NCBI GenBank assembly: GCA_037833965.1
Contig: AP031358.1
Span: 15,632,001-15,696,000, forward strand
Source: Marchantia polymorpha subsp. ruderalis
Lineage: Eukaryota; Streptophyta; Marchantiopsida; Marchantiales; Marchantiaceae
Direction of reading: 5' to 3'
Length of the DNA: 64,000 bases
Position 1 is the stretch's first letter. Every line of letters starts with the position of its first letter. The translations under genes were made by a program, and so were the position numbers. Below are positions 426 through 64,000 of the stretch, one piece after another. Under the pieces are notes generated by a model. It was not told the DNA's origin and did not search any database. It worked only from the letters and a program-made list of their open reading frames with translations.

Positions 426-467
426 GGCTTCACTGATGGGTCATCAGTGAAGCCATCAGTGATGGCT
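426..467. repeat. Overlapping perfect hairpins just after the KH/CCCH stop codon
   Basis: Bases 426-438 and 442-454 are perfect 13-base inverted arms with a 3-base loop. Bases 451-467 form a second palindrome of two 8-base arms around one centre base, sharing AGCC with the first, so the two stems are mutually exclusive in RNA. On the minus strand the stop codon (456-458) lies inside the second stem and directly before the first. The role is unknown; it may be a chance duplication or an RNA structure at the stop codon or in the 3' UTR. Confidence 0.6.
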
Positions 468-1100: not shown

Positions 1101-3955
1101 CTGTTAAACAAAGAAAACTTTGAGAACGTCAGAATTCAACTAGCTAGCTCTAGATATTTGCTGTTGAACGAGGCCCTTTTTTCCCTGTTTGTGAACAAAC
1201 ATTCAGAGGTGAGTTCAAAGCTTTAGACAGCAAAGGTGATAAGCTATGCATCTTTAAGGAACAATGAAACCAAATTCGTAAGAAAATCCTATGGATGAGT
1301 AAGGGCCAATATAAAAAATCAAACTGGGTCGAGCAAGCTTATTTAAGCACGAGAGCAGATTCGGGTTCAGTTTTAAAGTTTCACCTTCCTTTGCAACTGG
1401 AGCTCCAAAAAGTGATAAATACTGTCTTCGCCATACCGTCCATGTCCTTCACCGTGGATATATCTAACCATAGGAACAGGCACAATGCGATATGCTGATC
1501 CTGGCACGAAATTAGAGTAAAGGGAGAGAACATCAAAATATCCACAAGAAAGACTACGTTGATAAAGTCTGAGAATGAAGAACTGAAGCTTCCTCGACTA
1601 TTTAAGGTCCCTGGTTTCTAGCTCCTAGCGAGAAGGTGGGTGGGGGTGTTACAGATGTTCATAATATGTCTTAGTCAAAGGTTCAATGTCAGACTTGAGT
1701 GGGATGTGTAAACAGGGCTGGTATGTGTAAAGCTTACAAAGAATACATCTAATCAACATCAGGCCAGTCGGAGTCCCTGATATTACATTAAAAACTGATA
1801 AGTAAGCATTTCCACCGCATCAGATACTCCACTGGAATCAGTTTTGGAGGAACTCAATGTAGAAAATGTTTTGGAGTGCCAAGTGTACGGTGATGGCTGC
1901 AAACTGGCATCTTCTTTGCGAAAATGAAAACAGCAACATGTCACTGTAAAATACTGGTGGATATGCTGCTGATAGATTACTCACTTCGTCGTCAGTCATA
2001 ACCGTTTTTCTCCCACCACGTCTCGAAACTGAACGGAAGCCTCAAAAGCAGATGACTCGCACTGATCTTGACTGCTCCACGCCCCGTCATCTTCTACAGC
2101 AATAACATCGTGTGATTAGACTCACTCTGGCTGGTAATGATATTCACGCAATTTTTTGAATATATCCTGTGACCTTTCACTCCAAAAAGAGCCGCCGTTC
2201 CAGGACTACGCGATTGTTCTTTCATCATATACTGGACCTCAACGACCAACCCACCGTAACAAAGCAAAACACAAATGAGGGAAATTGACATATCCTTCAT
2301 TCTGAGTTTGGATTCGGTCTGGAGAAACGTGACTTACGATAGGCAGTTATGGTGCGTAATCGATCAGCCCATATCATATTGACTCGAGGACATACTCCTG
2401 CTTATAAATCCGATGTTAAAAATGGTGTGGAGTGGCTTCAAAACAGTTCCGAATACGACTTGTGAGTGAAGGGATTTAAGCAAGACTACTTTTGAGCTGG
2501 CGTAGTTTGTATGTTTGGGCGAAATGTGTCATTGTGAATCAAATTTGCCTCGTACTACACGTGCAATACTAGCCATTACTATAGTCCACGTTTAAGGAAT
2601 ACTGACCCCGTGATGACTTGTGCGTGTAGAGTAAGGAGTTTATCAATTTCCATATCTTCTTAATGAACTGATAGGACTTAGACTGTTCAAACTTAAAGAA
2701 AATTTACTGCAAAGTGGGAAATGGATATTGGAAGAGTTGAGCAAGAGGCATCATGAACTTAAGAAAAGAACACGATATACTTATTAAAAAACTTTCCATT
2801 ATCATAAACGTAGAATGTCCAATCACTCCTCGATACATCTGTTACATTTTTCTTTTCTCAACAAGTAAAGTACCTTCAGCTTCAGGTAGACAAGTCATTT
2901 CCTTCAGGAATATAGGAACAGTCGCCAGGTGATATATATGTATTTGAGATACATATATAAATTATATTTCATCAAGGACTGATTTAAATAAACAACAGTG
3001 CTTAATTAAAACAACATTTTTGCACCTTAGTGCACCACATATGAATAAGATGTAAAAAAAGACCTTATTTAATCACAATTTTGAAGTTTTTTTAGTAAAT
3101 TTTTTATTAATTTGTTAATTATTGGAGATATTCTAATCGATGTTGGGGTTTTTTTAAAAGAGAGCTGTATTTTAAAGCATGTATGATAGTAAAAAATACT
3201 CTTATTTATATTTCATAAGCATCATAATTATTTAGATACATCATAAAAACTTTTGAAGAAAAATTGATGTTAAATTTTACTTGGGACCCCAACATTAATT
3301 TAAGTTGATATCAGGAATTTGATTTTTTTCTCTAGATTTCGTATCTTTCAAAACTGTCTAGGCAATAGTACAGCACCAAGTACTGTACTATGACACGACA
3401 ACAAGATATCAGTTTGCTTGTATACTTTTCAAATCCTAAACTTGTGACGCAAACTTTACGTTGTTCAAAATCAAATCTTGGTCAACGTCATCCAAAGAAA
3501 ATTTGACATGTTGATGAAAGAAATTTAAGAGTCTACATGAAAAAGACATCAAGATCAAAGATAAAGAAAGTGAATGGAAATGTTTCAACATTATATCATT
3601 TATTGCAATCTTCTTCCAGAGAAAGCTTAAATTTCTTTAGACACATAGAGTATCATTGTTGATCGTAAATATCTGTAGCTTTTCATTTCTCATGGATATA
3701 AACCGTAATTTGTTACATTTTAAGAAACAAATAAAAATAGAAATATCGTGTGTAGCATTACTTAGGAACATCAAATAACTGCAAAAAAATCAAGTATAAA
3801 AAGTAAATGCAATGAACAAATAAAAAAGTAACGTGGATTAATCATGAAAAATAATAATACTTTACAATATTACTTCGATTCGACGAAGGTTCAGCTGCAT
3901 TTGGATATGTAACTTTACTGATTTCAATCAGAAACTAAGTTCTTTCGTCTCCTTC
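1101..3955. other. Probable intron/5' region of the KH/CCCH gene, then AT-rich DNA
   Basis: Upstream of the KH/CCCH exon on the minus strand. The 1.1-2.6 kb part has near-gene base composition and may hold 5' exons or the promoter, but no second CCCH finger was recognised. From about 2.7 kb to the solo LTR the sequence is strongly AT-rich with no supported gene. Confidence 0.3.
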
Positions 3956-3960
3956 CCAAT
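3956..3960. repeat. Target-site duplication CCAAT, left copy
   Basis: CCAAT directly precedes the TGTAATAACC end of the solo LTR and is repeated at 8860-8864 directly after its other end. A 5-bp duplication is what Ty3/gypsy integrases make. Confidence 0.9.
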
Positions 3961-4860
3961 TGTAATAACCCACCAAAGGCTAAAATTGCAGTATGGTGGT
4001 AAAAAGATCGAACCCACAAGGACAGAGGCAACACACAGAGTAAAAAGTGTCACGTTTAACAGACTTTTGTAGAGTTTGAATTCTCAGGCGACTGTCACTC
4101 CCAGAAATACTGCAGTGCTCGACTCGGAGGCCACTCGGAGGATGCTCGGAGGATGCACAGTGCAGCGTAAGTCACTCAACACACACACACACACACACCT
4201 GAAACTGGAAAAGCACAGCTCGGAGGTCGGTCATGACCTCCGCTTAGGATTTCAAGGGGAAAAGTATCTCAAAAGTTCACTCAGAGGCTCTGCAGGTAGT
4301 GACTCCCACTCCGGCTTTTACAGCCCTTCCGCCAGGAACTAGCGTAGGGAACCCGGACTGGACTTCCCACTTCGGAACGAAGTCCCTCATACGCAGTGGA
4401 CGTCACCCCCGACTCACACCAAGCGCAGAGAGTACAGGCCCGACTGAGAACTTAACTGAGACACAATCCAGTCACACACACACACAACCTGAATTGCTAA
4501 CCAAGGTTTACACGAAGTAACAAAACTTCACTTTGGCATTCAGGGGAAACTTCCCGTAAGAGTACAATCAGGACATGTCACTCGAAGGAGTAAGGGGGAA
4601 CTGTTCAAGTATCTAACTCGCAACCGGCTCTGAGCATCAGAAATCACCCGCAGGTGCAAATCCGCACTACTCAAGTCTCTAACCGGTGTACTAGCTCTGA
4701 ACATTCAGCCGAAGGCCTTCAGCTACAACATGCGGTAACTTCACTATGCTGCAGCTCCTCTACGTGGTGCCAGGACCAAATGCACAAACACGCCGAGAAA
4801 GTGAGTTCCTGATCTGCACTTCCGAAACTGGAAGAGTCCCAATGCAAAACGCCTTGAAAT

Positions 4861-48680: not shown

Positions 48681-49595
48681 TGTAATAACCCACCAAAGGC
48701 TAAAACTGCAGTATGGTGGTAAAAAGATCGAACCCACAGGGACAGAGGCAACACACAGAGTAAAAGTGTCACGTTTAACAGACTTTTGGTAGAGTTTGAA
48801 TTCTAGGCGACTGTCACTCCCAGAAATACTGTAGTGCTCGACTCGGAGGCTCGACTCGGAGGAGGAACTCAACTCGGAGGATGCTCGGAGGATGCACGGT
48901 ACAGCTTGGTCACTCAACACACACACACACACCTGAAACTGGCAAAAAGCACAACTCGGAGGTCGGTCAGGACCTCCGCTTCGGATTTCAGGAGGAAAGT
49001 GTCTCGCAAGTTCACTCAGAGGTTCTGCAGGAAGTGCCTCCCACTCCGGCTTTTACTGCCCTTCCGCCAGGAACTAGCGGGGGTACCCGGACTGGACTTC
49101 TCACTTCGGAACGAAGCCTCTACGTACGCCGTGGACGTCACCCTCGACTATCACACAAAACGCAGGGAGTGCAGACCCGACTGAGAACTTACTGAAAACA
49201 CGATCCAGTAACACACACACAACCTGAATTACAAACCAAGGTTTACACGAAGTAATGAAACTTCACATTGGCATTCAGGGGAAACTTCCCGTAGGAGTAC
49301 AATCAGGATATGTCACTCGAAGGAGTAAGGGGGAACTGTTCAAGTATCTAACTCGCAGCCGGCTCTGAGTATCAGAAATCACCCGCAGGTGCAGATCCGC
49401 ACTACTCAAGTCTCTAACCGGGTACTAGCTCTGAATGTTCAGCCGAAGGCCTTCAACTACAACATACGGTAACTTCGCTATGCTGCAGCTTCTCTACGTG
49501 GTGCCAGGACCAAAATGCACAAACACGCCAAGAAAGTGAGTTCCTGATCTGCACTTCCGAAACTGGAAGAGTCCAAAGGCAAAACGCCTTGATCT

Positions 49596-49603
49596 ACTTT
49601 ATA
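49596..49603 (-). promoter_or_regulatory. TATA box candidate for genomic RNA, left LTR
   Basis: TATAAAGT on the minus strand lies 34 bases past the end of the LTR ORF and is conserved in all three large LTRs (4861-4868 and 60254-60261). If it is used, U3 would span from 53547 to about 49565, with the ORF inside U3, and R-U5 would be about 885 bases. Confidence 0.55.
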
Positions 49604-49636
49604 CTCTCAAAAGATCCTAACTAGCACTACGCTATC

Positions 49637-52192
49637 CTATCTACCACTCGCAGCATCTGCGCGAAACCAAACTACTCTACTGCACTCAGCAGATCCGGTG
49701 CTGCGCCTCCTGCGCGCCGGACTGCTCCGCTTACTGTCTCTACCTTGCCAGTCTTCCGACCGGCTGCGTAACCCCAGGCGTCGGAGCGCTGTGGTGACTT
49801 CCGACTGCAAGTGCGCCATGGTGTCGCGCGCACCCGACAAGAAGGTTTCTAATTTTCTTGCCACTCGCCGCCGACTCCGACTGTCACCTTCCGTCAAGGC
49901 CGCCGCCCGAAGCTCGAACTCCCGGAGTGTGACCCTCTCTTGAGCTGCCACCTCCCAATGGGTGTATCCGTTTAGACAACGAGTCACCCGTGCCGCCAAC
50001 TCTCCTCGTGCCCTGCAGCTGCTCTCCACCTCTGCCAGCTGCATTTCTAAATCCGCACGTTGAGCCCTCAAATCCGAGCACTCGGTTTGCAAGTTGCACA
50101 ACAACTCCTCATCCTCCTTGCGGGCTCTTTGACTTTCCTCTAAGGCGCGCGTCTGGCGCGCAAGCTCGGCTGCTAGGACTTTGTTCTGTCTCCGCTCCTC
50201 CTGCAGTTCCGACTCGATCTTTGCCCGTATTAGTTCGGCCTCCGCCTGACTCTTCGTCGCCGCATCCTCCTTCTGCTGCTGCAAGGCTTGGTACAGCTTC
50301 TGGGTGACCGCCAGGTGTTGTCGGAGGGCGGTGTTCCTATCCACATATACTTGGCAACTAGAGGCCCACTTTGCCACCTTGATCCTCGTCCTTCGCCTGA
50401 TAGTCTCCACATAAGACTGCGGTTTTAAGGCACTTCCGTATTTGGATGTCTTGCGATCCAGATATCGCAGGAGTGGAACTATCTGTTCGCACAGCACCCC
50501 TGTTGGCGTTTTCTGCACTGAATCCTCTTCTTGCTCTTCCGAGCTCGTCTCATCCTCAGTCTCGAGGATCTCAGTCGCCACCGAATCCCTTGGCGACTCC
50601 CTGGAACTGTGGCGCGCAGCAGCTTCCGCTGCGACTGCTGCTCCACTGCCTGCTAAAATATCCAGGGCAGTGGGAGATCCCACTGCTTGAGCCCCTGTTC
50701 CGGCTCGATCTTCGGCTTGTGAAGGGGTCGACGCCGCAGTGACTTTTGTCACTCTTGCACCGCCCGCTTCTGCTGCCTGTCCTTCCGGCGCAATCTGCGC
50801 GGAAGGTGTCCTTGCTGAAGGTGCGTCCGCCGAAGGCGTCCGCACACTGGTCGTTGGCTCCATCCGTCTCGCAGTCGGCGAATCCGGCTGACTCTCTGTT
50901 GTCCGACTCGCAGTCGGCCGACCAGCAGTTGTCCGACTGGGAGTCGGATACACCCTGCGCGTCTTGACTCCACTTGGCCTGCTTGTTGGGGGCGTTCTTC
51001 CAGAAGTGCCTTCCGCCGAAGACGACCCTCTAAGGATTGTTGGCTCGTCAGCCAAACTCTCTTCCGCTTCCGGCCTGCTGTCCGGTTCAACGCGCCGTTC
51101 AGTTGGCCTTCCTTCCGCTTGTCGACCTTCAGTCATCCGACTCGCAGTCGGCCGGTCGTCAGTCCGTCCATCTCCTCCCGAAGGCCGTGGTGCCTTCTGT
51201 GCAGAGGTTTCTGCCGTCTTCCCTAGGACCTGAGCAATTATCTCTTCCTGTGTGAGATTCCGCCGGGTCGGAGTTCGCCTGGTCTCCTCAGTAACAGTTG
51301 GCATTCTGCGTGCCCTCTGTTTTGGTCGACTATGAGGCTCGGGGGTGGGCCGACCACGAGTCGGCGCAGCTGGTACTTCCGGCTGCCTGTCCTCAGGTCT
51401 CTCATCCCACTTCCGCTTGCGCGGAATGCGCTCACTTCGACGTTCTTCTGCTGCTCTGGCTGGAGCCGGAGCCGGAGGCGTACTGGCAGGTTCCTCGTCC
51501 GGATCCGTGTCTACTTCGGCCTCCCTCGAATATCTACCTGGATAAGACCGGCTCAGCTGCGGAAACCGAGTTTTCTCAGCATTCGTCAAACATCCCATCG
51601 CCCGGTAAAACACGATTAAGTAAGGCGATAGATGATTGAGCGTTCCTCCCCTCTCTTCTTGCGCATGTTGGCGCGTCACCTTCCACAGAAGTCGTGCCCA
51701 ATGCACCGGAGCTCCTGACAACACTAGCTCCACGAACTCTACCTGCCAACCATGCATGTAAGCGGTCTTGGTCGGCTGCAATATCTGCAGCAATGCTGTC
51801 GCGACATTTCTCCGCAATCGATCCTTGTAATCCCGAGTCCGGAAACCGTTCTTGGGATGTCTAGCCACCTTGAAGAGCTCATTGTAAGAGACTTCTTCCT
51901 CCTGGGACACTTTCACGCTGTCGGCCTCGAAGAGGAGATCCCCTTCCTCGCCGGCACACCTGCCCAACACCTGCGCCCAATTGCAAATTTCCCATCTCTC
52001 TGGGTGTGGGCGAAATCCGCGAGAAGGCTTGTGTCTCTCTTGCAGATACTCGCGCACCATCTCCGGACACGTCCAATTCCACCCCCAGAGGAGAAAATCG
52101 AGCTTCAGCCTCGTCAGCACATCTTGAAATGCGCGTAGACCGATCTGCGGCACCCTGAGTGGAGACACTCGCAGTTGGGGAACCTTCGACAT
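49637..52192 (-). CDS. LTR-encoded 851-residue protein of unknown function (left LTR copy)
   Basis: Intact ORF lying wholly inside the LTR; the start chosen is the ATG at 52190-52192 (MSKVPQLRVSP). Residues 1 to about 220 form a Trp-rich, well-conserved domain (LLWGWNWTCPEMVREYLQE, NGFRTRDYKDRLRRNV, AYMHGWQVEFVELVL, NHLSPYLIVFYRAMGCL), loosely like the domains found in plant transposon-associated proteins. Residues of about 225-600 are low-complexity: Ala-Pro runs, a basic RKRKWDER nuclear-signal-like patch, RPTASR-type repeats and an acidic EDETSSEEQEED patch. Residues of about 610-810 form a long coiled coil (QEERRQNKVLAAELARQTRA). The C-terminus is Arg/Ser-rich. It matches no gag, pol, envelope or protease motif. 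It may be a DNA- or RNA-binding or assembly factor; that is inference. It is convergent with nothing and lies directly upstream of the genomic-RNA TATA. Confidence 0.85.
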   Translation of the reverse strand: MSKVPQLRVSPLRVPQIGLRAFQDVLTRLKLDFLLWGWNWTCPEMVREYLQERHKPSRGFRPHPERWEICNWAQVLGRCAGEEGDLLFEADSVKVSQEEEVSYNELFKVARHPKNGFRTRDYKDRLRRNVATALLQILQPTKTAYMHGWQVEFVELVLSGAPVHWARLLWKVTRQHAQEERGGTLNHLSPYLIVFYRAMGCLTNAEKTRFPQLSRSYPGRYSREAEVDTDPDEEPASTPPAPAPARAAEERRSERIPRKRKWDERPEDRQPEVPAAPTRGRPTPEPHSRPKQRARRMPTVTEETRRTPTRRNLTQEEIIAQVLGKTAETSAQKAPRPSGGDGRTDDRPTASRMTEGRQAEGRPTERRVEPDSRPEAEESLADEPTILRGSSSAEGTSGRTPPTSRPSGVKTRRVYPTPSRTTAGRPTASRTTESQPDSPTARRMEPTTSVRTPSADAPSARTPSAQIAPEGQAAEAGGARVTKVTAASTPSQAEDRAGTGAQAVGSPTALDILAGSGAAVAAEAAARHSSRESPRDSVATEILETEDETSSEEQEEDSVQKTPTGVLCEQIVPLLRYLDRKTSKYGSALKPQSYVETIRRRTRIKVAKWASSCQVYVDRNTALRQHLAVTQKLYQALQQQKEDAATKSQAEAELIRAKIESELQEERRQNKVLAAELARQTRALEESQRARKEDEELLCNLQTECSDLRAQRADLEMQLAEVESSCRARGELAARVTRCLNGYTHWEVAAQERVTLREFELRAAALTEGDSRSRRRVARKLETFLSGARDTMAHLQSEVTTALRRLGLRSRSEDWQGRDSKRSSPARRRRSTGSAECSRVVWFRADAASGR

Positions 52193-53547
52193 TGCGTTGC
52201 CTGCACACACAAACGTTCTCCCTTTCGCTCACTCTCTCACAATCGCCACTGCGCGTCGGCCACTCAAGCACTGACTGCTCACTCTCTCTGCGCTCGTTCA
52301 AGATCGCTACTCCCAATTCTTTCAAGGTCCGCCAAGATCCTTGTGCAACTCGTCTCCGCACTCTCTACTCTCACTGCAGGTCGCTCCGCCCTTGCGCGTA
52401 ATCTTGGAACTGGAAATTGCAAAGTCAAGAATGAGGGAATGAGACTGGAGCGCAGTCTTTTCTTCTCCGATTTCAAGAACGTCCAACGTTCTTACTGGTT
52501 GCAACGTACGCAGCCGGCTATACGGCTTAACGGTTCGCCCTTTGCATGCGCGAATTCACGTCTCCGCATTGCGCGCATTCGCATGCTTAAACGTTGAATT
52601 CTCCCGCCACCGCCACCTTCCGGACTCGAGTCCGCTGCAGGGTATACGTCGGCCCTGTTGTCTTTTCCTAACCCGCCCTTCTCCGGAGGCGTGTCGCCGC
52701 TGGCGCGTTCATTATCCGTCGGCGCCTTGCTGGAGACGCACATCCAGCCGGAGCGAATTACGCCGGCGCGCAGTCGTACCGCCTATTTTGTCCTTTATGC
52801 CTTGTCCGTTGCTGCCAGCGCATATCCGTCAGCGCAACTCATGCCAGCGCATCCGGCCGTCAGCGCCACGTCGGAGGCGTACATCCGACCGGCGCTTTCC
52901 TTCCATGAACAGCCGCCAAGGGCGCTTCCGACTCTGAGTTGGTTTCCTCCTGTGAGCGCGTGATTCCGCCGAAGGCGCATCGCCGAGGGCGTACGGGAAT
53001 CCTTTCCGGCTGTGAACCCTAGCGCGAACGGCGCATGTCCGGCTACGAGTTTTCCGACGCTCATAACTTCTCCATTCCTGATCCATCTCCGGCGCTCTTG
53101 GACTCGTTAGAACGAGCGTCCCGAGCTCTGTCTAATGCAACTTCCACCAACTGGATCTACCGTGTATCCCGATTGTTATGAAGGTTTTCCCTTTCCGCGC
53201 TAGCGGCGCTTCGCCGAAGGCGCACTCATGGTCGGATGCCTTTAGAGGTCCGGGCCCTTCTCCTGACGTCTTTAGCAAAACCTCCTCCTGAGGTGTCTGC
53301 GCCGGAAGCGTAGCTTCCTTATGCGCTAGAGGCGCGTGAGTAGAGACACCTCAAAAAGGAGCTTTTGCCGAAGGCGCCGAAGACGTTGGCGTTGGTACAT
53401 CCGACTACGTGATTCTTTGTGCCCTCGTGACGATCTCATCAATCCACTCTATTTAGCGTACCCTTCTCTAGCTACAAACACTGCTTTGGTACTAGTTTTC
53501 TAAAATTGTTTAAATTCTGCAAAAAAAACAAAAAGTGTGTTACCACA
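52193..53547 (-). promoter_or_regulatory. GC-rich repeat-laden leader upstream of the LTR ORF
   Basis: This 1.35-kb part of U3 precedes the LTR ORF. It carries at least six imperfect copies of a GCCGAAGGCGC / CGGAGGCG motif (near 52685, 52870, 52914, 52967, 53213 and 53367), which can form short hairpins, and an AACGAGCGTCCCGAGCTC block conserved in the solo LTR and the old remnant. A TAAATAG motif (minus strand, 53455-53447, CTAAATAGAG) about 95 bases inside the LTR could be a TATA box for an ORF transcript, and it is conserved as TTAAATAGAG at about 8761 in the solo LTR. Confidence 0.4.
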
Positions 53548-53562
53548 TGCCCCCCTCCTCAA
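53548..53562 (-). other. Polypurine tract
   Basis: TTGAGGAGGGGGGCA on the minus strand lies directly next to the 3' LTR start. It has the position and composition of the plus-strand primer used in reverse transcription. Confidence 0.85.
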
Positions 53563-53584
53563 TTGTGAGCGCCCACGCGAACAT

Positions 53585-56425
53585 TTACACGTGGTATTTC
53601 TTCAGACGCCATCCGTTCACGCGGGTGCCTAACCATTCTCCCGTCAGTTCTGCGAGTTGGATTGATCCATTTGGGAAAACTTCTATCACCTTGTAAGGTC
53701 CCATCCACCTCAAGTGGAGCTTGCCTGGAAATCTAGCATGTCTGCTATCGTATAGCAGAGCCAAGTCGCCCTTCTCCAGCAGTACTGGTTTGAGCCTTCG
53801 ATCGTACTTCTCCTTCCGCCTGAGTTGTAATTGCTTTGTCCGATCTTCGGCCTCTTGACGTCTTTCCTCCAGTGCCATTACCTCTTGCAGTCGATATGCC
53901 TGACTTTCTTCCGCGTCCAGCCTTCTCTGATCTAAGGTCCTCTTGGTAGGTATCTCGAATTCGATGGGTAAGATCGGATGTTGCCCATAAACTAAGAAGT
54001 AAGGTGTTTGCCTGGTGGTGACTTTTTCTGCCGTTCTATATGCCCATAAGGCGGCCGGTAGCTTGGTGTCCCAGTCATGAGCATGGTTTACAGTCACCTT
54101 GAGGAGTATCTTACAGAGTAATCCATTGGACTTCTCTGTCAGACCATTTGCCTTGGGGTTGTATGGAGTGGTCTTCCGATGCTTAATCTGGAAGTGCCGC
54201 GTCAAACTTTCTATCACCTGATTCAGAAAGTGCGTGCCTCTGTCACTGACTATTTCTAGGGGGCACCCGTAGCGTGTGATGATGGATTCGAATAGGAACC
54301 GTGCTACTGCGGCTGCGTCATCGTGCCTTGTGGCTTCTGCCTCCACCATCTTGGTCGCATAGTCTGTTGCTACCAATATGTAGCGCCTGCGCGTGCCTTT
54401 AGTGACAGGTTGTATTGGTCCCACGAAGTCGATCCCCCATTTTTCAAACGGTGCCAATGGCATGATTGGTGTAAGAGGCCATCTCGTGGTCGGAGTCGGC
54501 CTTCCCGTTCTCTGGCAGCTGTCGCATTTGCGAACGTAGTCGTGTACATCTTTGAACATCGTCGGCCACCAGTATCCTGCATTCACAATTTTGGTCACTG
54601 TGTTTCTGGTGGCGTAGTGACCACCAGCGTCTTCTGTGTGCATGGCTTTGACAACTCGCGGGACTTCAGACTCCTCTAGACATCTGCACAACCTCTCGTC
54701 TGCCATTTTCTTGAACAAGACCCCTTGTTGGAGCTGGTAAGGTCCCGCTTTATGAACGAAGACTGTGCGCTGCTCTGCATCCAATCCTTCCGGACATTGG
54801 AGTGTGAGCAGGAACCTGTATAAGTCCGCGTACCTGGACTCATGGCTGGCGGACAACTGAAAAAGTTGTTCGTCGGGAAAATCATCCACTACTTCCTCCT
54901 CTATGGGTTCGGTCCATAGTCGGGAGAGGTAGTCCGCGTTCTCATGGTGAACGCCTTTCCGTGTCTGTACAGTATAGGTGAATTCCTGTAGCAGTAGCAC
55001 CCACCTGGCAATTCGTCCGGACAGATCCGCCTTCTTCACCAGGTGCTGTAAGGCGTAATGGTCTACATGAAACACGAACTCATAGCAGATCAAATAATGT
55101 CGGAACTTCTTGCAGGAGTACACCATTCCCAACGCCTCCCTCTCAGTTGTCGTGTACTTCTTCTCTGCTGCTGACAACTGACGACTCGCGAAGTAAATCG
55201 GGTAGTCTTTCTTGTTGTCATCCTTCTGACTGAGAACCACCCCGATTGCAAACGCCGACGTGTCTACATAGACATGGAAAGGTCTGTTCCAATCCGGACT
55301 TCTCAGAACCGGAGCAGTCGTCAGTTTGGCTTTGAGCGTTTCAAAGGCCAGCTGTTGCTCCTTGCCCCACACATAGGGTTCATCCTTCTTAAGCAGCTTC
55401 GTCAGATCGGCCGCCAAGATGGCATACATATTTATGAACCTTCGGTAATAACCTACATGGCCAAGGAAGGCCCTCAACTCACGCAGATTCGTTGGCGGCT
55501 GCAGTTCGAGAATAATCTTCACCTTCTCTACATCCACTGCAATGCCATCGGACGAAACTCGGTGCCCTAGCAGGATTCCGCTGGTCATGAAGAAGAAACA
55601 TTTCTCAGGGTGTAAGGACAAGCTGCTCTCCCTACATCTGTCGAACGTTTGCCGAAGATGGTTAAGGTGCTCCGACCTCTTACCGAAGACACAAAAGTCG
55701 TCGATGAAAATTTCTAGGAACTTCCTCAGGTGCTCTTGGAAAATGTTTGTCATCATCCGCTGGAACGTCGCTGGCGCGTTGCACAGACCGAACGGCATCT
55801 TGTGATAGGCATAGGTCCCCCAGTCGGTCGTGAAGGTTGTTTTGTCCTTGTCCTGTTCCCTGATGGACACCTGGTTGTAGCCGGAGAATCCGTCTAGGAA
55901 ACTGTAGCATTCATGCCCTGCTACATGGTCTAAAATAGAGTCCGTGAAAGGAAGAGGGTGATGGTCCTTCCTCGTTGCTGCGTTCAGCTTCCTGAAGTCC
56001 TGACACACCCGGATCTTACCCGTCAGTTTCTTGGGCACGATCACGATAGGCGACACCCACTCGCTACTAAGTACCGGGTAGATGATTCCTGCGCTCAGGT
56101 ACTTATCGATTTCGTCCTTCACCAATAATGAATATTTTGGGTTGAGCCTGTATTGGCGTTGGCGAACCGGAACTGCCTCGTCCAACAAGTCGATTCTGTG
56201 CTCTCCATACCTTGCAGGTATGCCTTTCATGTCTTCAATCCTCCATGCGAAGACATCCTCATACTGGCGAAGAAACGCCTGTACCCTGTTCAACTCTTCT
56301 CCTTGTACCTGGCTTGACACCTTCAAGCCTTTACCTGGACTGAGCTGCAGTTCGCAGCAATCACTCGGGTCAACAATCCCCTCTGTGTGACTGATCTCGC
56401 TTCTGCCCAGTCCGGCTGCTAGTTG
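53585..56425 (-). CDS. pol: Pol: reverse transcriptase, RNase H and integrase (made by stop-codon readthrough)
   Basis: The frame is open from the codon after the gag TAG (CAA at 56423-56425) to the stop at 53585-53587, 946 codons. It has no ATG near its start, so it is most simply read as the continuation of gag. Counting from LKVSSQVQ (TTG at 56326), the reverse transcriptase has the FIDD active site at about 207-210, a variant of YxDD seen in Athila/Tat elements. RNase H starts near 350 (FHVYVDTSA). The integrase zinc domain has His 563 and 570 and Cys 601 and 604. The catalytic triad is Asp633, Asp695 and Glu731, exact DD35E spacing. The C-terminus (YKVIEVFPNGSIQLAEL to GWRLKKYHV) has no chromodomain. 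All catalytic residues are present. Confidence 0.95.
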   Translation of the reverse strand, partial: QLAAGLGRSEISHTEGIVDPSDCCELQLSPGKGLKVSSQVQGEELNRVQAFLRQYEDVFAWRIEDMKGIPARYGEHRIDLLDEAVPVRQRQYRLNPKYSLLVKDEIDKYLSAGIIYPVLSSEWVSPIVIVPKKLTGKIRVCQDFRKLNAATRKDHHPLPFTDSILDHVAGHECYSFLDGFSGYNQVSIREQDKDKTTFTTDWGTYAYHKMPFGLCNAPATFQRMMTNIFQEHLRKFLEIFIDDFCVFGKRSEHLNHLRQTFDRCRESSLSLHPEKCFFFMTSGILLGHRVSSDGIAVDVEKVKIILELQPPTNLRELRAFLGHVGYYRRFINMYAILAADLTKLLKKDEPYVWGKEQQLAFETLKAKLTTAPVLRSPDWNRPFHVYVDTSAFAIGVVLSQKDDNKKDYPIYFASRQLSAAEKKYTTTEREALGMVYSCKKFRHYLICYEFVFHVDHYALQHLVKKADLSGRIARWVLLLQEFTYTVQTRKGVHHENADYLSRLWTEPIEEEVVDDFPDEQLFQLSASHESRYADLYRFLLTLQCPEGLDAEQRTVFVHKAGPYQLQQGVLFKKMADERLCRCLEESEVPRVVKAMHTEDAGGHYATRNTVTKIVNAGYWWPTMFKDVHDYVRKCDSCQRTGRPTPTTRWPLTPIMPLAPFEKWGIDFVGPIQPVTKGTRRRYILVATDYATKMVEAEATRHDDAAAVARFLFESIITRYGCPLEIVSDRGTHFLNQVIESLTRHFQIKHRKTTPYNPKANGLTEKSNGLLCKILLKVTVNHAHDWDTKLPAALWAYRTAEKVTTRQTPYFLVYGQHPILPIEFEIPTKRTLDQRRLDAEESQAYRLQEVMALEERRQEAEDRTKQLQLRRKEKYDRRLKPVLLEKGDLALLYDSRHARFPGKLHLRWMGPYKVIEVFPNGSIQLAELTGEWLGTRVNGWRLKKYHV

Positions 56426-56431
56426 CTATTC
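56417..56431 (-). promoter_or_regulatory. Probable stop-codon readthrough signal between gag and pol
   Basis: On the minus strand the gag frame ends GAA-TAG-CAA-CTA-GCA. TAG at 56426-56428 is followed by CAA-CTA, which fits the UAG-CAR-YYA context that drives about 5% readthrough in tobamoviruses. gag and pol are in the same frame with no other stop between them, and pol lacks its own start. Confidence 0.7.
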
Positions 56432-59254
56432 CTCATCCGGATACACCTCGTCTCCTTCCTCCTCAATGGAGCAGCAAGTGACGTAGCCCACAAAGTCCTC
56501 TGACGTTTCGGTCTCTGAAGTGCATGATGAGCTGGTCTCCCCTCCAGTTGTGTAACCGGAGGTGGTGGAAGGTGTTTCGCCCTCATGGGGTACCTTGGTC
56601 CACGGTACGGTAATGACAGTCGGAGGGTCCGCAGGGCTACGGAACTGTAATCTCTTCCTACTCCAGTCACACCTTGCTTTGGCATCGTATAGCCAAGGTC
56701 TGCCAAGCAGCACATCATAACCTTTCTTCATCAGAGGTTGCAGTATTATGTAGGACAGTTGAAAGTCCACTCCTCCAATGTTGGTTCTCACATTGCTCAA
56801 CATTCCTAGTGGCATTCTGCGTGTTTGATCGGCCAGTCGCAATACTCGGGATGTAGGTTCGAAGGTCTGGAACCCCAAGGAGTTCGCTGTCTCCTCGGTC
56901 ATGATATTCACGCCCGAGCCGGAGTCCACTGGTACCTTCTGAATGACGCAGCCTCCGATCTCTACTTCGATCTCTGGAGGTCCCAGGTCTCCTCCTTCCA
57001 CTCTGTACACAGCCGGAAGTTTCTCTTTTCGGGGTTTGCGTGGTCGGCGCAACGAAAGCATCAGCATCCTCCTGTACGTCTTATTGTCTTCCAACAACTG
57101 GTGGAAGGAAATATTTGCCCTCTGGCTCCCCATGTCTTTCACTATGTCGTAGGGAGTGTTGGAAGTCACGGCCGGAAGTTTCCCTGTACTCGCGGTCGGA
57201 AGGGGTGTAGGGGGCCTAACTGCCTTCCGGTCGTCGGATGTCATTCCGGCGCCCAGTGCTTCCTTGATGAGGTGACTCACCTCATCTTTGATGTCCGGAA
57301 GGTAATCTCGAGTCCGGAACTCTTCTGAATACCTGTCCGCCTTTTCTGAGTTCTGCTCCGGCTGGGTGTTTCTCATAGCCGGAGGTGTACCCGGCCTTCT
57401 CCTCTGGCCTTCTCTAACTTCTTTAGACTTCCTCCTTTCTTCCCTACGCTCGAGGCGGCGAGTGTCCTCGTGGCCTTCTCCTTTCCTCTTCGAACTTCGG
57501 GTTTCTACCCGACCGCACATTACTTCTTCCTCTGGCCATACTTCGTCTCCTTCAGCTGGGTCCAGACTCAGTTCTACCTGGTTGACCTGCACTTCTTCCT
57601 TGCCAGGTGTTGATACGAAACGCACGGCTGGCCTAGGGATTTGGGGCTGGTCACATTCAGCTGCTGTATGTCCGGACTTCTTGCAATTGCTGCACAATGG
57701 TGCATACCCCATTGGCTTCCTCGGGTGGGGACAACTTGGCGCGTAATGCCCCATGTCTCCGCAGTTGTAGCAACCATCGAATTGTGGTCGAGGTCGGTTG
57801 TGATTGCCTGGAGGTGCCATGCGTCTTGGTGGGAGTGTACCCGCCATTTCCCTCGGAACAAAGCGCGGTATATGCACCGGTGGGTTCGGAGTTGTAGCTG
57901 GAGCTGTCTGTACCGAGTAGGCGGTGTCCTCAACCTGCTCAGCATAATACATAGGCGGCTCAGCATAATACATGGGGTTCTCCCATTGTGGTGCCCATTC
58001 GACCGCATTCACTGGGTAAGATGGCCTCGCGGACATGCACTCCGTGTTGGCATGTCCCACCTGTCCGCACGTAGTACACCAGAGATTCGCTCGTTGTCTC
58101 GCAGGTGATTTACGTCGGTCTTGGCCTCCCACTACATGAACTTTCAGGTCCGCAAAATTCTTCACCAGGTTGTCTACCTTGGCTGCGATGTCCCCTTGAG
58201 TCTTCACTGGGATTCCCTTACCTCGATCCTTCTTCTTGATCGCACTGCGTTTCTTCTTCCGTCTTTCTTCTTCTGAAGATGACGAGTCCTCTTCCTCTTC
58301 CGAGGAAGAACTTGATTCGGAGGAGCTCGATTCTTCTGTCGAGGAAGGCGAGTTCCTTCTCTTCCGACGTCCGCCTTGCGACTTCTTCTTCGTCGACCGT
58401 CGGTCGCGTCTTCGAGTGTCAAGGGTTGACGTCTCAAAGGTCTCCGCGGAAGCTATCACATCTTGGATTGTGTCAGTCTTGCCTCTCCTACAGAAGGTCT
58501 CCATTTCTCTTGAGAGCCCTGTCACATACCAATCCACTGCCTGTTGTACCGAATACGGTTCTCCCGGGCCTGTCTTCGGAATTCGATCTAGGAGGTCTTG
58601 GAATCTCTCAGTGTAGTCTCGAAGATTCTCCTTCCGCTCGCGTCGAAGATTTCGAAGCCGGGTCAGAACTCGACTGTCATATCCGAGTTCGCGGAACCGC
58701 CTCAGAAACTTTTCCTTGAGCTGAGCCCAGGTCCGGATGCCAGTGGGGTCGGTGCTCTCATGGTTGTACCAGCTACGCGCTCGTTTGCGTAGCAGGCTAG
58801 GAAAGATTCGTAATCTGTCTTCATCACTGGTCTCACGATTGGCGATGGAGACAGACTCGAAGAGCTTTATGTATGAATCTGCATCATCGTCGTCGCCCGT
58901 TCCCGTGTATCTTGGATACGAATGTTTGGTGGTAGGTTGGGAAAACACATGGCGGAGATTGGCTTGATGTTCTGCCATCGGTGATCCTGTCGACGGACTG
59001 ATCCTAGGTTGGCCAAACTCAGGAAGAGTTCCTGTCGGAGGGATGTCCAATAGAACTGTTAGCTCAATGCTCTCGGTAGGTGAACTGGAACGCCTTTGTC
59101 TTCCAGTAGTCGGTGATGGCGATCTTTCTGCAGAGTCCTCACCGGGAGTCTTCTTTTTAGTTCGCCGTTTTGTTTCCACGGCTTTTTCTGAATCTCGACG
59201 GAGTTTCCGTGTGGCTCTCGCACTCAGGTTTCCCACACTATCGCTCGTCGACAT
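56426..59254 (-). CDS. gag: Gag and protease polyprotein
   Basis: 942 codons from the ATG at 59252-59254. A basic N-terminus is followed by the retrotransposon gag core (about 125-275; SYIKLFESVSIANRE to RSWYNHESTDPTG). Next comes an acidic Ser/Glu tract (about 303-330), then three CCHC zinc knuckles of the form C-x2-C-x4-H-x4-C near 393-406, 495-508 and 521-534. The usual number is one or two. The aspartic protease carries DSGSGVNIM at about 777-785 and the second-lobe GYDVLLGRPWL. The stop at 56426-56428 is TAG in a leaky context. The first 85 bases between the LTR and the ATG hold the primer-binding site. Confidence 0.95.
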   Translation of the reverse strand: MSTSDSVGNLSARATRKLRRDSEKAVETKRRTKKKTPGEDSAERSPSPTTGRQRRSSSPTESIELTVLLDIPPTGTLPEFGQPRISPSTGSPMAEHQANLRHVFSQPTTKHSYPRYTGTGDDDDADSYIKLFESVSIANRETSDEDRLRIFPSLLRKRARSWYNHESTDPTGIRTWAQLKEKFLRRFRELGYDSRVLTRLRNLRRERKENLRDYTERFQDLLDRIPKTGPGEPYSVQQAVDWYVTGLSREMETFCRRGKTDTIQDVIASAETFETSTLDTRRRDRRSTKKKSQGGRRKRRNSPSSTEESSSSESSSSSEEEEDSSSSEEERRKKKRSAIKKKDRGKGIPVKTQGDIAAKVDNLVKNFADLKVHVVGGQDRRKSPARQRANLWCTTCGQVGHANTECMSARPSYPVNAVEWAPQWENPMYYAEPPMYYAEQVEDTAYSVQTAPATTPNPPVHIPRFVPREMAGTLPPRRMAPPGNHNRPRPQFDGCYNCGDMGHYAPSCPHPRKPMGYAPLCSNCKKSGHTAAECDQPQIPRPAVRFVSTPGKEEVQVNQVELSLDPAEGDEVWPEEEVMCGRVETRSSKRKGEGHEDTRRLERREERRKSKEVREGQRRRPGTPPAMRNTQPEQNSEKADRYSEEFRTRDYLPDIKDEVSHLIKEALGAGMTSDDRKAVRPPTPLPTASTGKLPAVTSNTPYDIVKDMGSQRANISFHQLLEDNKTYRRMLMLSLRRPRKPRKEKLPAVYRVEGGDLGPPEIEVEIGGCVIQKVPVDSGSGVNIMTEETANSLGFQTFEPTSRVLRLADQTRRMPLGMLSNVRTNIGGVDFQLSYIILQPLMKKGYDVLLGRPWLYDAKARCDWSRKRLQFRSPADPPTVITVPWTKVPHEGETPSTTSGYTTGGETSSSCTSETETSEDFVGYVTCCSIEEEGDEVYPDEE

Positions 59255-59299
59255 TCACCGAGCATTGCTGCTCAAGGGTTCTGGTGTTGACGCACTGTT

Positions 59300-59316
59300 C
59301 CCCGGCAGCGGCGCCA
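59300..59316 (-). other. Primer-binding site, tRNA-Asp type
   Basis: TGGCGCCGCTGCCGGGG on the minus strand matches the complement of the 3' end of plant tRNA-Asp (CCCCGGCAACGGCGCCA) with one mismatch. It lies 22 bases from the LTR edge at 59339, an unusually long spacer. The same primer is known from Athila/Tat-type elements. Confidence 0.85.
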
Positions 59317-60253
59317 AAAAGAAGTTGTCGGCTCCTTATGTAATAACCCACCAAAGGCTAAAACTGCAGTATGGTGGTAAAAAGATCGAACCCACAGGGA
59401 CAGAGGCAACACACAGAGTAAAAGTGTCACGTTTAACAGACTTTTGGTAGAGTTTGAATTCTAGGCGACTGTCACTCCCAGAAATACTGTAGTGCTCGAC
59501 TCGGAGGCTCGACTCGGAGGAGGAACTCAACTCGGAGGATGCTCGGAGGATGCACGGTACAGCTTGGTCACTCAACACACACACACACACCTGAAACTGG
59601 CAAAAAGCACAACTCGGAGGTCGGTCAGGACCTCCGCTTCGGATTTCAGGAGGAAAGTGTCTCGCAAGTTCACTCAGAGGTTCTGCAGGAAGTGCCTCCC
59701 ACTCCGGCTTTTACTGCCCTTCCGCCAGGAACTAGCGGGGGTACCCGGACTGGACTTCTCACTTCGGAACGAAGCCTCTACGTACGCCGTGGACGTCACC
59801 CTCGACTATCACACAAAACGCAGGGAGTGCAGACCCGACTGAGAACTTACTGAAAACACGATCCAGTAACACACACACAACCTGAATTACAAACCAAGGT
59901 TTACACGAAGTAATGAAACTTCACATTGGCATTCAGGGGAAACTTCCCATAGGAGTACAATCAGGATATGTCACTCGAAGGAGTAAGGGGGAACTGTTCA
60001 AGTATCTAACTCGCAGCCGGCTCTGAGTATCAGAAATCACCCGCAGGTGCAGATCCGCACTACTCAAGTCTCTAACCGGGTACTAGCTCTGAATGTTCAG
60101 CCGAAGGCCTTCAACTACAACATACGGTAACTTCGCTATGCTGCAGCTTCTCTACGTGGTGCCAGGACCAAAATGCACAAACACGCCAAGAAAGTGAGTT
60201 CCTGATCTGCACTTCCGAAACTGGAAGAGTCCAAAGGCAAAACGCCTTGATCT

Positions 60254-60261
60254 ACTTTATA
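60254..60261 (-). promoter_or_regulatory. TATA box candidate for genomic RNA, 5' LTR
   Basis: Same TATAAAGT as in the left LTR. As the 5' LTR, this copy would drive the full-length RNA, starting near 60223 and running through gag-pol. Confidence 0.55.
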
Positions 60262-60294
60262 CTCTCAAAAGATCCTAACTAGCACTACGCTATC

Positions 60295-62850
60295 CTATCT
60301 ACCACTCGCAGCATCTGCGCGAAACCAAACTACTCTACTGCACTCAGCAGATCCGGTGCTGCGCCTCCTGCGCGCCGGACTGCTCCGCTTACTGTCTCTA
60401 CCTTGCCAGTCTTCCGACCGGCTGCGTAACCCCAGGCGTCGGAGCGCTGTGGTGACTTCCGACTGCAAGTGCGCCATGGTGTCGCGCGCACCCGACAAGA
60501 AGGTTTCTAATTTTCTTGCCACTCGCCGCCGACTCCGACTGTCACCTTCCGTCAAGGCCGCCGCCCGAAGCTCGAACTCCCGGAGTGTGACCCTCTCTTG
60601 AGCTGCCACCTCCCAATGGGTGTATCCGTTTAGACAACGAGTCACCCGTGCCGCCAACTCTCCTCGTGCCCTGCAGCTGCTCTCCACCTCTGCCAGCTGC
60701 ATTTCTAAATCCGCACGTTGAGCCCTCAAATCCGAGCACTCGGTTTGCAAGTTGCACAACAACTCCTCATCCTCCTTGCGGGCTCTTTGACTTTCCTCTA
60801 AGGCGCGCGTCTGGCGCGCAAGCTCGGCTGCTAGGACTTTGTTCTGTCTCCGCTCCTCCTGCAGTTCCGACTCGATCTTTGCCCGTATTAGTTCGGCCTC
60901 CGCCTGACTCTTCGTCGCCGCATCCTCCTTCTGCTGCTGCAAGGCTTGGTACAGCTTCTGGGTGACCGCCAGGTGTTGTCGGAGGGCGGTGTTCCTATCC
61001 ACATATACTTGGCAACTAGAGGCCCACTTTGCCACCTTGATCCTCGTCCTTCGCCTGATAGTCTCCACATAAGACTGCGGTTTTAAGGCACTTCCGTATT
61101 TGGATGTCTTGCGATCCAGATATCGCAGGAGTGGAACTATCTGTTCGCACAGCACCCCTGTTGGCGTTTTCTGCACTGAATCCTCTTCTTGCTCTTCCGA
61201 GCTCGTCTCATCCTCAGTCTCGAGGATCTCAGTCGCCACCGAATCCCTTGGCGACTCCCTGGAACTGTGGCGCGCAGCAGCTTCCGCTGCGACTGCTGCT
61301 CCACTGCCTGCTAAAATATCCAGGGCAGTGGGAGATCCCACTGCTTGAGCCCCTGTTCCGGCTCGATCTTCGGCTTGTGAAGGGGTCGACGCCGCAGTGA
61401 CTTTTGTCACTCTTGCACCGCCCGCTTCTGCTGCCTGTCCTTCCGGCGCAATCTGCGCGGAAGGTGTCCTTGCTGAAGGTGCGTCCGCCGAAGGCGTCCG
61501 CACACTGGTCGTTGGCTCCATCCGTCTCGCAGTCGGCGAATCCGGCTGACTCTCTGTTGTCCGACTCGCAGTCGGCCGACCAGCAGTTGTCCGACTGGGA
61601 GTCGGATACACCCTGCGCGTCTTGACTCCACTTGGCCTGCTTGTTGGGGGCGTTCTTCCAGAAGTGCCTTCCGCCGAAGACGACCCTCTAAGGATTGTTG
61701 GCTCGTCAGCCAAACTCTCTTCCGCTTCCGGCCTGCTGTCCGGTTCAACGCGCCGTTCAGTTGGCCTTCCTTCCGCTTGTCGACCTTCAGTCATCCGACT
61801 CGCAGTCGGCCGGTCGTCAGTCCGTCCATCTCCTCCCGAAGGCCGTGGTGCCTTCTGTGCAGAGGTTTCTGCCGTCTTCCCTAGGACCTGAGCAATTATC
61901 TCTTCCTGTGTGAGATTCCGCCGGGTCGGAGTTCGCCTGGTCTCCTCAGTAACAGTTGGCATTCTGCGTGCCCTCTGTTTTGGTCGACTATGAGGCTCGG
62001 GGGTGGGCCGACCACGAGTCGGCGCAGCTGGTACTTCCGGCTGCCTGTCCTCAGGTCTCTCATCCCACTTCCGCTTGCGCGGAATGCGCTCACTTCGACG
62101 TTCTTCTGCTGCTCTGGCTGGAGCCGGAGCCGGAGGCGTACTGGCAGGTTCCTCGTCCGGATTCGTGTCTACTTCGGCCTCCCTCGAATATCTACCTGGA
62201 TAAGACCGGCTCAGCTGCGGAAACCGAGTTTTCTCAGCATTCGTCAAACATCCCATCGCCCGGTAAAACACGATTAAGTAAGGCGATAGATGATTGAGCG
62301 TTCCTCCCCTCTCTTCTTGCGCATGTTGGCGCGTCACCTTCCACAGAAGTCGTGCCCAATGCACCGGAGCTCCTGACAACACTAGCTCCACGAACTCTAC
62401 CTGCCAACCATGCATGTAAGCGGTCTTGGTCGGCTGCAATATCTGCAGCAATGCTGTCGCGACATTTCTCCGCAATCGATCCTTGTAATCCCGAGTCCGG
62501 AAACCGTTCTTGGGATGTCTAGCCACCTTGAAGAGCTCATTGTAAGAGACTTCTTCCTCCTGGGACACTTTCACGCTGTCGGCCTCGAAGAGGAGATCCC
62601 CTTCCTCGCCGGCACACCTGCCCAACACCTGCGCCCAATTGCAAATTTCCCATCTCTCTGGGTGTGGGCGAAATCCGCGAGAAGGCTTGTGTCTCTCTTG
62701 CAGATACTCGCGCACCATCTCCGGACACGTCCAATTCCACCCCCAGAGGAGAAAATCGAGCTTCAGCCTCGTCAGCACATCTTGAAATGCGCGTAGACCG
62801 ATCTGCGGCACCCTGAGTGGAGACACTCGCAGTTGGGGAACCTTCGACAT
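60295..62850 (-). CDS. LTR-encoded 851-residue protein of unknown function (right LTR copy)
   Basis: Identical to the left-LTR protein except for Asn in place of Asp in the EVDTxPDEEP segment, just after the conserved N-terminal domain (from the C/T change at 51505/62163). The start is the ATG at 62848-62850. Domain layout and remarks are as for the left copy. Because the 5' LTR is nearest its own upstream flank, a transcript from this copy could also continue into gag unless it is terminated. Confidence 0.85.
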   Translation of the reverse strand: MSKVPQLRVSPLRVPQIGLRAFQDVLTRLKLDFLLWGWNWTCPEMVREYLQERHKPSRGFRPHPERWEICNWAQVLGRCAGEEGDLLFEADSVKVSQEEEVSYNELFKVARHPKNGFRTRDYKDRLRRNVATALLQILQPTKTAYMHGWQVEFVELVLSGAPVHWARLLWKVTRQHAQEERGGTLNHLSPYLIVFYRAMGCLTNAEKTRFPQLSRSYPGRYSREAEVDTNPDEEPASTPPAPAPARAAEERRSERIPRKRKWDERPEDRQPEVPAAPTRGRPTPEPHSRPKQRARRMPTVTEETRRTPTRRNLTQEEIIAQVLGKTAETSAQKAPRPSGGDGRTDDRPTASRMTEGRQAEGRPTERRVEPDSRPEAEESLADEPTILRGSSSAEGTSGRTPPTSRPSGVKTRRVYPTPSRTTAGRPTASRTTESQPDSPTARRMEPTTSVRTPSADAPSARTPSAQIAPEGQAAEAGGARVTKVTAASTPSQAEDRAGTGAQAVGSPTALDILAGSGAAVAAEAAARHSSRESPRDSVATEILETEDETSSEEQEEDSVQKTPTGVLCEQIVPLLRYLDRKTSKYGSALKPQSYVETIRRRTRIKVAKWASSCQVYVDRNTALRQHLAVTQKLYQALQQQKEDAATKSQAEAELIRAKIESELQEERRQNKVLAAELARQTRALEESQRARKEDEELLCNLQTECSDLRAQRADLEMQLAEVESSCRARGELAARVTRCLNGYTHWEVAAQERVTLREFELRAAALTEGDSRSRRRVARKLETFLSGARDTMAHLQSEVTTALRRLGLRSRSEDWQGRDSKRSSPARRRRSTGSAECSRVVWFRADAASGR

Positions 62851-64000
62851 TGCGTTGCCTGCACACACAAACGTTCTCCCTTTCGCTCACTCTCTCACAA
62901 TCGCCACTGCGCGTCGGCCACTCAAGCACTGACTGCTCACTCTCTCTGCGCTCGTTCAAGATCGCTACTCCCAATTCTTTCAAGGTCCGCCAAGATCCTT
63001 GTGCAACTCGTCTCCGCACTCTCTACTCTCACTGCAGGTCGCTCCGCCCTTGCGCGTAATCTTGGAACTGGAAATTGCAAAGTCAAGAATGAGGGAATGA
63101 GACTGGAGCGCAGTCTTTTCTTCTCCGATTTCAAGAACGTCCAACGTTCTTACTGGTTGCAACGTACGCAGCCGGCTATACGGCTTAACGGTTCGCCCTT
63201 TGCATGCGCGAATTCACGTCTCCGCATTGCGCGCATTCGCATGCTTAAACGTTGAATTCTCCCGCCACCGCCACCTTCCGGACTCGAGTCCGCTGCAGGG
63301 TATACGTCGGCCCTGTTGTCTTTTCCTAACCCGCCCTTCTCCGGAGGCGTGTCGCCGCTGGCGCGTTCATTATCCGTCGGCGCCTTGCTGGAGGCGCACA
63401 TCCAGCCGGAGCGAATTACGCCGGCGCGCAGTCGTACCGCCTATTTTGTCCTTTATGCCTTGTCCGTTGCTGCCAGCGCATATCCGTCAGCGCAACTCAT
63501 GCCAGCGCATCCGGCCGTCAGCGCCACGTCGGAGGCGTACATCCGACCGGCGCTTTCCTTCCATGAACAGCCGCCAAGGGCGCTTCCGACTCTGAGTTGG
63601 TTTCCTCCTGTGAGCGCGTGATTCCGCCGAAGGCGCATCGCCGAGGGCGTACGGGAATCCTTTCCGGCTGTGAACCCTAGCGCGAACGGCGCATGTCCGG
63701 CTACGAGTTTTCCGACGCTCATAACTTCTCCATTCCTGATCCATCTCCGGCGCTCTTGGACTCGTTAGAACGAGCGTCCCGAGCTCTGTCTAATGCAACT
63801 TCCACCAACTGGATCTACCGTGTATCCCGATTGTTATGAAGGTTTTCCCTTTCCGCGCTAGCGGCGCTTCGCCGAAGGCGCACTCATGGTCGGATGCCTT
63901 TAGAGGTCCGGGCCCTTCTCCTGACGTCTTTAGCAAAACCTCCTCCTGAGGTGTCTGCGCCGGAAGCGTAGCTTCCTTATGCGCTAGAGGCGCGTGAGTA

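Follow-up and report, generated by a model that had tools for sequence, protein, structure and literature searches.

A selected protein-coding gene inside the long terminal repeats of Marchantia Ty3/gypsy retrotransposons

Cellular retrotransposons with long terminal repeats (LTRs) are usually described with non-coding LTRs. Here we describe a Ty3/gypsy element of Marchantia polymorpha subsp. ruderalis in which each LTR carries a whole open reading frame (ORF) of 851 codons, found in a stretch of 64,000 bases (contig AP031358.1, positions 15,632,001 to 15,696,000; hereafter the window, in which positions are counted from its first base). The nearest described arrangement is the sag gene of mouse mammary tumour virus (MMTV), an ORF outside gag-pol that is placed in the LTR of this betaretrovirus (PMC3038982) and is for that reason present in two copies per provirus. 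The Marchantia ORF is similar to sag in lying within the LTR, and its protein is kept by selection in the Marchantia family. Nevertheless, Sag acts on T cells and is a membrane protein of type II, whereas the Marchantia protein belongs to a plant host, contains a coiled coil and has no hydrophobic segment, and no sequence relation between the two is claimed.

Among plant Gypsy elements, additional conserved ORFs have been described in Retand, Grande, and RIRE2 of flowering plants, which carry antisense TRP28 (PF04195) ORFs of unknown role; some plant antisense ORFs match Smc or mitotic-checkpoint profiles, and the Grande protein is reported as nuclear (PMC11963269, PMC7264820). The TRP28 ORFs run antisense between pol and the 3′ LTR, whereas the Marchantia ORF is in sense orientation inside the LTR, and no PF04195 domain was found when the window protein and 15 family members were scanned as single sequences with Pfam. 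Another long-LTR plant Gypsy group with an extra, fast-changing ORF comprises Retrosat2, RIRE3, and RIRE8 of grasses (LTR of ~3 kb), where ORF0 evolves more rapidly than the gag-pol ORF (PMC3485330). ORF0 is located upstream of the gag-pol ORF and is not described as LTR-located, whereas the Marchantia ORF is not in the internal region upstream of gag. The plant env-like ORFs (aORF-3S) are defined by a transmembrane segment that the Marchantia protein does not have, and the Marchantia ORF stands inside the LTR, behind the polypurine tract (PPT). As to the host genus itself, Marchantia Gypsy elements have been described as having no additional RNase H (PMC10508981), like the window pol with its single RNase H region; the relevant part of that description mentions no LTR-coded protein. 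We found no LTR-coded protein of a plant retrotransposon among the best matches in the open-access literature searched.

The LTR gene, its distribution and its conservation

The element is a young Ty3/gypsy LTR retrotransposon occupying 48681-64205 on the minus strand, its final 205 bases being outside the window. The 3′ LTR (48681..53547, minus strand) has 4867 bp and is a direct repeat of 59339-64205, the 5′ LTR (59339..64000 on the minus strand within the window, continuing to 64205 beyond its end), from which it differs at 4 of 4867 sites. At LTR positions 1356-3911, in sense orientation and as the next gene after pol, each LTR contains the ORF of 851 codons plus stop, at 49637..52192 in the 3′ LTR and at 60295..62850 in the 5′ LTR (both minus strand). 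Both frames are open and their products differ by a single amino acid, and the 4.87-kb LTR with its intact 851-residue ORF, present twice in the element, is just as an earlier note on this DNA had claimed.

To see how far this arrangement extends we used the primer binding site (PBS), whose motif has 1228 matches in the 241-Mb genome (nine contigs). From the 100 matches listed, 20 loci, all on contig C2, were hand-picked for spacing, being thus chosen by PBS and not by ORF, and each was taken with its flanks, 8.5 kb on the upstream side of the PBS and 1.5 kb on the downstream side. The ORF is whole in 13 of the 20 sampled loci. Ten loci belong to the window's own family, with LTRs diverging by 0.9–3.3% from the window LTR, and all ten have a whole ORF of 849–851 codons. 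Six other loci form a second family, with ~42% protein identity and an LTR (TGTGGTACCCC...TTATTACA) of 5360–5394 bp in the five copies measured, which contains the ORF at the same place; here it is whole in three copies, cut short in one, and broken in two. In one of the whole ones (L006) the LTR upstream of the ORF has been replaced by foreign DNA. Broken relatives of the ORF were found at L021 (88 and 68% identity) and L019 (40%), and no ORF match was found at L022. At L020 (G000:C2:31269929-31271228) there is a 1300-bp LTR that has lost the ORF and its TATA box through a deletion of family-A positions 383-3973, with a pol broken up by another element. The junction created by this deletion occurs once in the genome (≤3 mismatches), so L020 is apparently a single deleted copy, and an ORF-less replicating subfamily using this short LTR was rejected.

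A genome-wide search gave 13560 candidates, the best 53 of which are all 99–100% family copies, 33 of them grouped at LTR-pair spacing; 50 of these 53 have no stop in the ORF and three have one, in a set that was selected by similarity and gives no average for the state of the ORF. Promoter words were found 1783 times for the first family (≤2 mismatches) and 2622 times for the second (≤1 mismatch), i.e., ~4,400 motifs in the 241-Mb genome when the two are summed, LTR fragments being counted too. At least two families, which have thousands of LTRs and belong to one Marchantia retrotransposon group, have the LTR-ORF arrangement in common, and broken relatives exist in others. This sharing between families is what goes beyond the earlier note.

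In the first family (55 pairs of 11 copies) the mean synonymous divergence (dS) is 0.0605 and the mean non-synonymous divergence (dN) 0.0170, giving a ratio of means dN/dS of 0.28, with values of 0.11 for the N-terminal domain, 0.38 for the linker, and 0.35 for the coil and tail. The second family has values of 0.16–0.29 (three pairs). Between families, the N-terminal domain shows 0.13–0.20, with dS near saturation there, the other parts being saturated and not computable. Variable sites are distributed over the three codon positions as 51/51/120, the third being the richest. Pairwise indels within the ORF amount to 0.13 per kb and all 18 are multiples of three, these 18 counts being probably a single 6-base event common to L005 and L013, the two 849-codon copies. 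In the LTR DNA flanking the ORF of the same copies we find 2.04 indels per kb before and 2.22 after it, of which multiples of three make up 20/152 and 2/112, respectively (22/264 in total), i.e., the indel rate is ~16 times lower in the ORF than in the adjoining LTR DNA. The LTR ORF is a real gene kept by selection on its protein. For the earlier note, an ORF mostly broken genome-wide and showing no silent excess would have spoken against its reading; the sampled copies of the window's own family are the opposite in both respects, while in the second family only three copies out of six are whole.

For comparison, pol gave dN/dS values of 0.01 and 0.02 (two comparisons, a third being saturated), a protease stretch of 213 codons 0.04, and gag, over its first 450 codons, 0.22, near the value of the LTR ORF. 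The LTR ORF thus codes for a selected yet fast-evolving protein, as is often seen with accessory proteins.

Synonymous divergence presents a pattern of its own. It is 0.055–0.06 in the LTR ORF (copy means) and 0.057 and 0.085 in pol (two comparisons), whereas gag over its first 450 codons (0.018) and the non-coding LTR DNA (0.010–0.018) show a third of this or less. The gap could come from CpG decay, from copies exchanging sequence, or from a constraint acting on leader and U3.

Probable placement in U3, proposed transcription and solo LTRs

The position of the ORF relative to the promoter of the genomic RNA is what decides whether it belongs to the unique 3′ region (U3) of the LTR. A TATAAA, the presumed genomic-RNA promoter, is found at 49598..49603 (minus strand) of the 3′ LTR and starts 34 bases after the stop codon of the ORF, where the earlier note had seen it; its counterpart in the 5′ LTR, placed by the 10658-bp spacing at 60256..60261 (minus strand) and free of the four LTR differences, is the copy that would start the genomic RNA. 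When 14 LTRs (window plus 13 of the 20 loci) were aligned over their last 1000 bases, TATAAA appeared right behind the ORF in 12, being absent in L020, where it is deleted, and in L019, which belongs to another family. The ~900 bases after it align across families, L019 excepted. At the other end, an alignment of 12 copies at the ORF start (window plus 11 loci, the older neighbouring LTR being used for L020) showed the ORF ATG in 12/12 anchored copies and a CATTCTTGA block ~230 bases upstream in 11/12, the exception being L006 with foreign DNA at that place. In the window this block (CTCATTCTTGA) is at 52425..52435 (minus strand), ~230 nt ahead of the ATG, and might be the start region of an ORF mRNA. 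The whole ORF is thus enclosed between the conserved TATAAA and the PPT (53548..53566, minus strand; last letters GAGGAGGGGGGCA), which adjoins the 3′ LTR on its upstream side; the presumed start of the genomic RNA is placed from the TATA box. As the TATAAA follows the stop closely in 12 of the 14 LTRs, the ORF is most likely within U3, and the economical reading would be a genomic-RNA promoter behind the ORF together with a second, TATA-less start ahead of it.

Our best explanation, which we hold to be probable, is that this is a U3-resident, selected retrotransposon gene with an mRNA of its own, coding for a nuclear accessory protein that associates with itself. Being inside U3, the gene would be copied into both LTRs at each round of reverse transcription. 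The genomic RNA would begin ~30 bases after the TATAAA behind the ORF, so that the gag-pol RNA would not have the ORF at its 5′ end, and the ORF would be read from a separate mRNA starting in the conserved stretch upstream of the ATG and using the normal poly(A) site of the LTR. The 5′ LTR, the 3′ LTR, and solo LTRs alike could be the source of such an mRNA.

Solo LTRs with an open ORF do exist, which makes concrete the suggestion of the earlier note that each of them is a potential stand-alone gene. Among the best 53 genome matches, 20 lack a listed partner at the distance expected for an LTR pair, and both ends were checked in 10 of these. Five show identical 5-bp flanks, are without PPT and PBS, and have an ORF free of stops; matching flanks and the lack of both PPT and PBS identify them as solo LTRs. 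The other checked singletons are four 5′ LTRs (PBS behind) and one 3′ LTR (PPT before). The ORF is therefore left whole in solo LTRs, which can be open genes, beyond mere promoters. Whether the move of a helper gene into the LTR turned each solo LTR into a stand-alone and still functional helper gene is a tentative idea that we find less probable than its opposite. If true, the recombination that kills an element would leave scattered genes supplying protein to the remaining full-length copies, and the host would gain ready-made nuclear genes for domestication.

As to origin, the gene may have been an accessory gene at the env position that was swallowed by the LTR, a history compatible with our best explanation but rather unlikely. 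It would suit the sense orientation, the PPT starting 18 bases beyond the pol stop, and the place of the ORF as the next gene after pol, and ORFs of unknown function at the env position are described as common in LTR retrotransposons, particularly those of plants (PMC10309623, PMC7264820). However, the gap between the ORF and the TATA box measures just 33 bases, and no older PPT or LTR-start remnant was seen there. Nor was any family with the ORF outside the LTR seen, among 20 loci most of which stop 1.5 kb beyond the PBS and scarcely reach the pol-LTR junction; besides, a protein without transmembrane segment is not an envelope protein.

A different placement, outside U3, would have the genomic RNA start in the block upstream, so that the ORF, located in the repeat region (R) or leader, would be the first cistron, gag being expressed by reinitiation or splicing. 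We consider this improbable. It would suit the conserved block, which 11 of 12 copies have ahead of the ATG, and it finds some encouragement in the gene model MARPO_0006s0274 (protein P0015), which joins part of the LTR ORF (its coil region), a long charged stretch, and gag. That stretch is nevertheless unrelated and the model may be a computed fusion; MARPO_0006s0274 is possibly either a spurious model or a real spliced read-through RNA. What speaks against an ORF in R or leader is the TATAAA right behind it in 12 of 14 aligned LTRs, and R would moreover exceed 2.5 kb if the poly(A) site is behind the ORF.

The protein, its relatives and its possible role

The predicted structure of the 851-residue protein has helices between residues 17 and 209, is mostly disordered to ~560, and continues with a near-continuous helix at 591-767 followed by others at 772-805 and 809-817. 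Basic clusters are present at 258 (RKRK) and 827 (RRRR), the tail has an isoelectric point near 12, and KRKW appears in the majority line of the alignment of family members, which are 33–62% identical to the window protein. No hydrophobic or transmembrane segment was found, the best 19-residue hydropathy average being 1.2.

Neither Pfam nor a sequence search of solved structures (PDB) gave a match to this protein at E up to 1. The Pfam scan of the 15 family members (E up to 10) returned Extensin_1, a low-complexity family, in one of them (E 0.00019) and CENP-K in two (best E 0.0018); both were judged to be effects of composition or of the coiled coil. The 50 VIA-align matches listed all fall within residues 676-842, i.e., the coiled coil and tail. 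In the genome, PF20167, taken as a possible relative, had no match in a search that the control genomes did not validate, and PF04195, a candidate suggested by PMC7264820, had only two matches (E 0.9–1.0), far under the cut-off. Among proteins the window ORF product is best matched by Mp_8g15400 of Marchantia polymorpha, with 96% identity across 59% of its length, which suggests that some annotated Marchantia "hypothetical proteins" are pieces of LTRs. Three protein searches gave no named homologue outside Marchantia, scoring in two cases only the ~8,000 candidates with most common words; five assembly matches (source tag lgn) could be from other species.

That the named relatives are all from Marchantia, and that no relative was found in other retroelements, would also fit a captured host gene, or a passenger that the host maintains, without function for the element. 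This is very unlikely, for it is among the copies of a mobile family that selection shows, two families have the gene at the same LTR position, and the best 53 of the 13560 genome matches are, as said, family copies, most of them at LTR-pair spacing. A frame open by chance, or through a cis-acting constraint on the DNA, for which one could invoke the youth of the family (four differences in 4867 LTR sites), is practically excluded by the frame kept in 10/10 copies, the exclusively in-frame indels beside an adjoining LTR DNA with ~16 times more of them, mostly out of frame, the excess of third-position changes, and a dN/dS of 0.28.

Several points weigh against the explanation of a U3-resident gene for a nuclear accessory protein. 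The MARPO_0006s0274 fusion would fit a transcript running from the ORF into gag, and is the only hint of such read-through. Half of the sampled second-family copies do not have a whole ORF. The amino acids of the LTR ORF evolve much faster than those of pol and the protease stretch, which indicates that parts of it are loosely constrained. The structural model of the N-terminal domain is weak, with a predicted local distance difference test score (pLDDT) of 56 for the whole protein and 50 for this domain alone, and Foldseek matches of the whole model did not go below E 2.8 in PDB or 0.015 in a viral library, none being a credible relative. Finally, the transcription start, the poly(A) site, the separate mRNA, its expression, the nuclear location, and the action in trans are all things that we infer.

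With somewhat less certainty than its placement, the product would be a self-associating nuclear accessory protein acting in trans and composed of a helical N-terminal domain, a flexible linker with a basic cluster, a coiled coil of ~250 residues, and an arginine-rich tail. Its likeliest target would be the element's own RNA or chromatin, with a function either in the nuclear handling and export of the genomic RNA or in relief from silencing. For the first, the model is CERV of Cer1, a Ty3/gypsy element of Caenorhabditis elegans, described as nuclear, forming large assemblies, and needed for genomic-RNA export; it is likewise an element-specific accessory protein without known homologues beyond the genus (PMC10309623). 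The second has its model in VANC of the Arabidopsis VANDAL transposons, which is described as acting in trans to counter silencing via noncoding DNA of the element (PMC10398659), although VANDAL are DNA transposons with tandem-repeat targets, whereas a search for such targets in the Marchantia LTR gave only short arrays and repeats. Sequence alone allows no choice between an export role, as in CERV, and an anti-silencing role, as in VANC. A plant lineage with a selected protein gene inside its LTRs offers a direct test case for the role of extra ORFs in plant Gypsy elements, which is called unknown in parts of the literature cited above.

Further features of the element

The structural marks of Ty3/gypsy elements are all present, namely a pair of LTRs with TG...CA ends, a target duplication, PPT, and PBS. 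The LTR termini are TGTGGTAACACAC...GGGTTATTACA (TGTGG...TTACA ends) and the element is flanked by a 5-bp target duplication, GTGCT. Two open ORFs with Pfam matches give the order gag, protease, reverse transcriptase (RT), RNase H, integrase that is typical of Ty3/gypsy: one of 942 amino acids for gag and protease (56426..59254, minus strand; Retrotrans_gag, zf-CCHC, and Asp_protease_2) and a pol ORF of 913 amino acids (53585..56326, minus strand; RVT_1, RT_RNaseH, Integrase_H2C2, and rve). The PBS (59299..59316, minus strand) is of tRNA type, and we take it to be similar to that of Athila elements. It lies 22 nt inside the 5′ LTR boundary, and the 22-base spacer between LTR and PBS (TAAGGAGCCGACAACTTCTTTT or near variants; window 59299-59338) is found in 18 of the 20 sampled loci, L019 and L022 having a different sequence ahead of the PBS. 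This spacer is an extra stretch at the U5 end for integrase or reverse transcription to handle.

The upstream flanks of 23 LTR insertions match another copy's LTR in nine cases, and in none the internal region of family A, the only internal region compared. Such LTR-in-LTR flanks may reflect an insertion preference or plain nesting. The insertions at L034 and L036, on different contigs, are one base apart within the last codons of the LTR ORF. At G000:C9:5363403-5387273, three LTR ORFs follow each other in one direction with a spacing of 10.66 kb, as expected for two tandem elements with a shared middle LTR.
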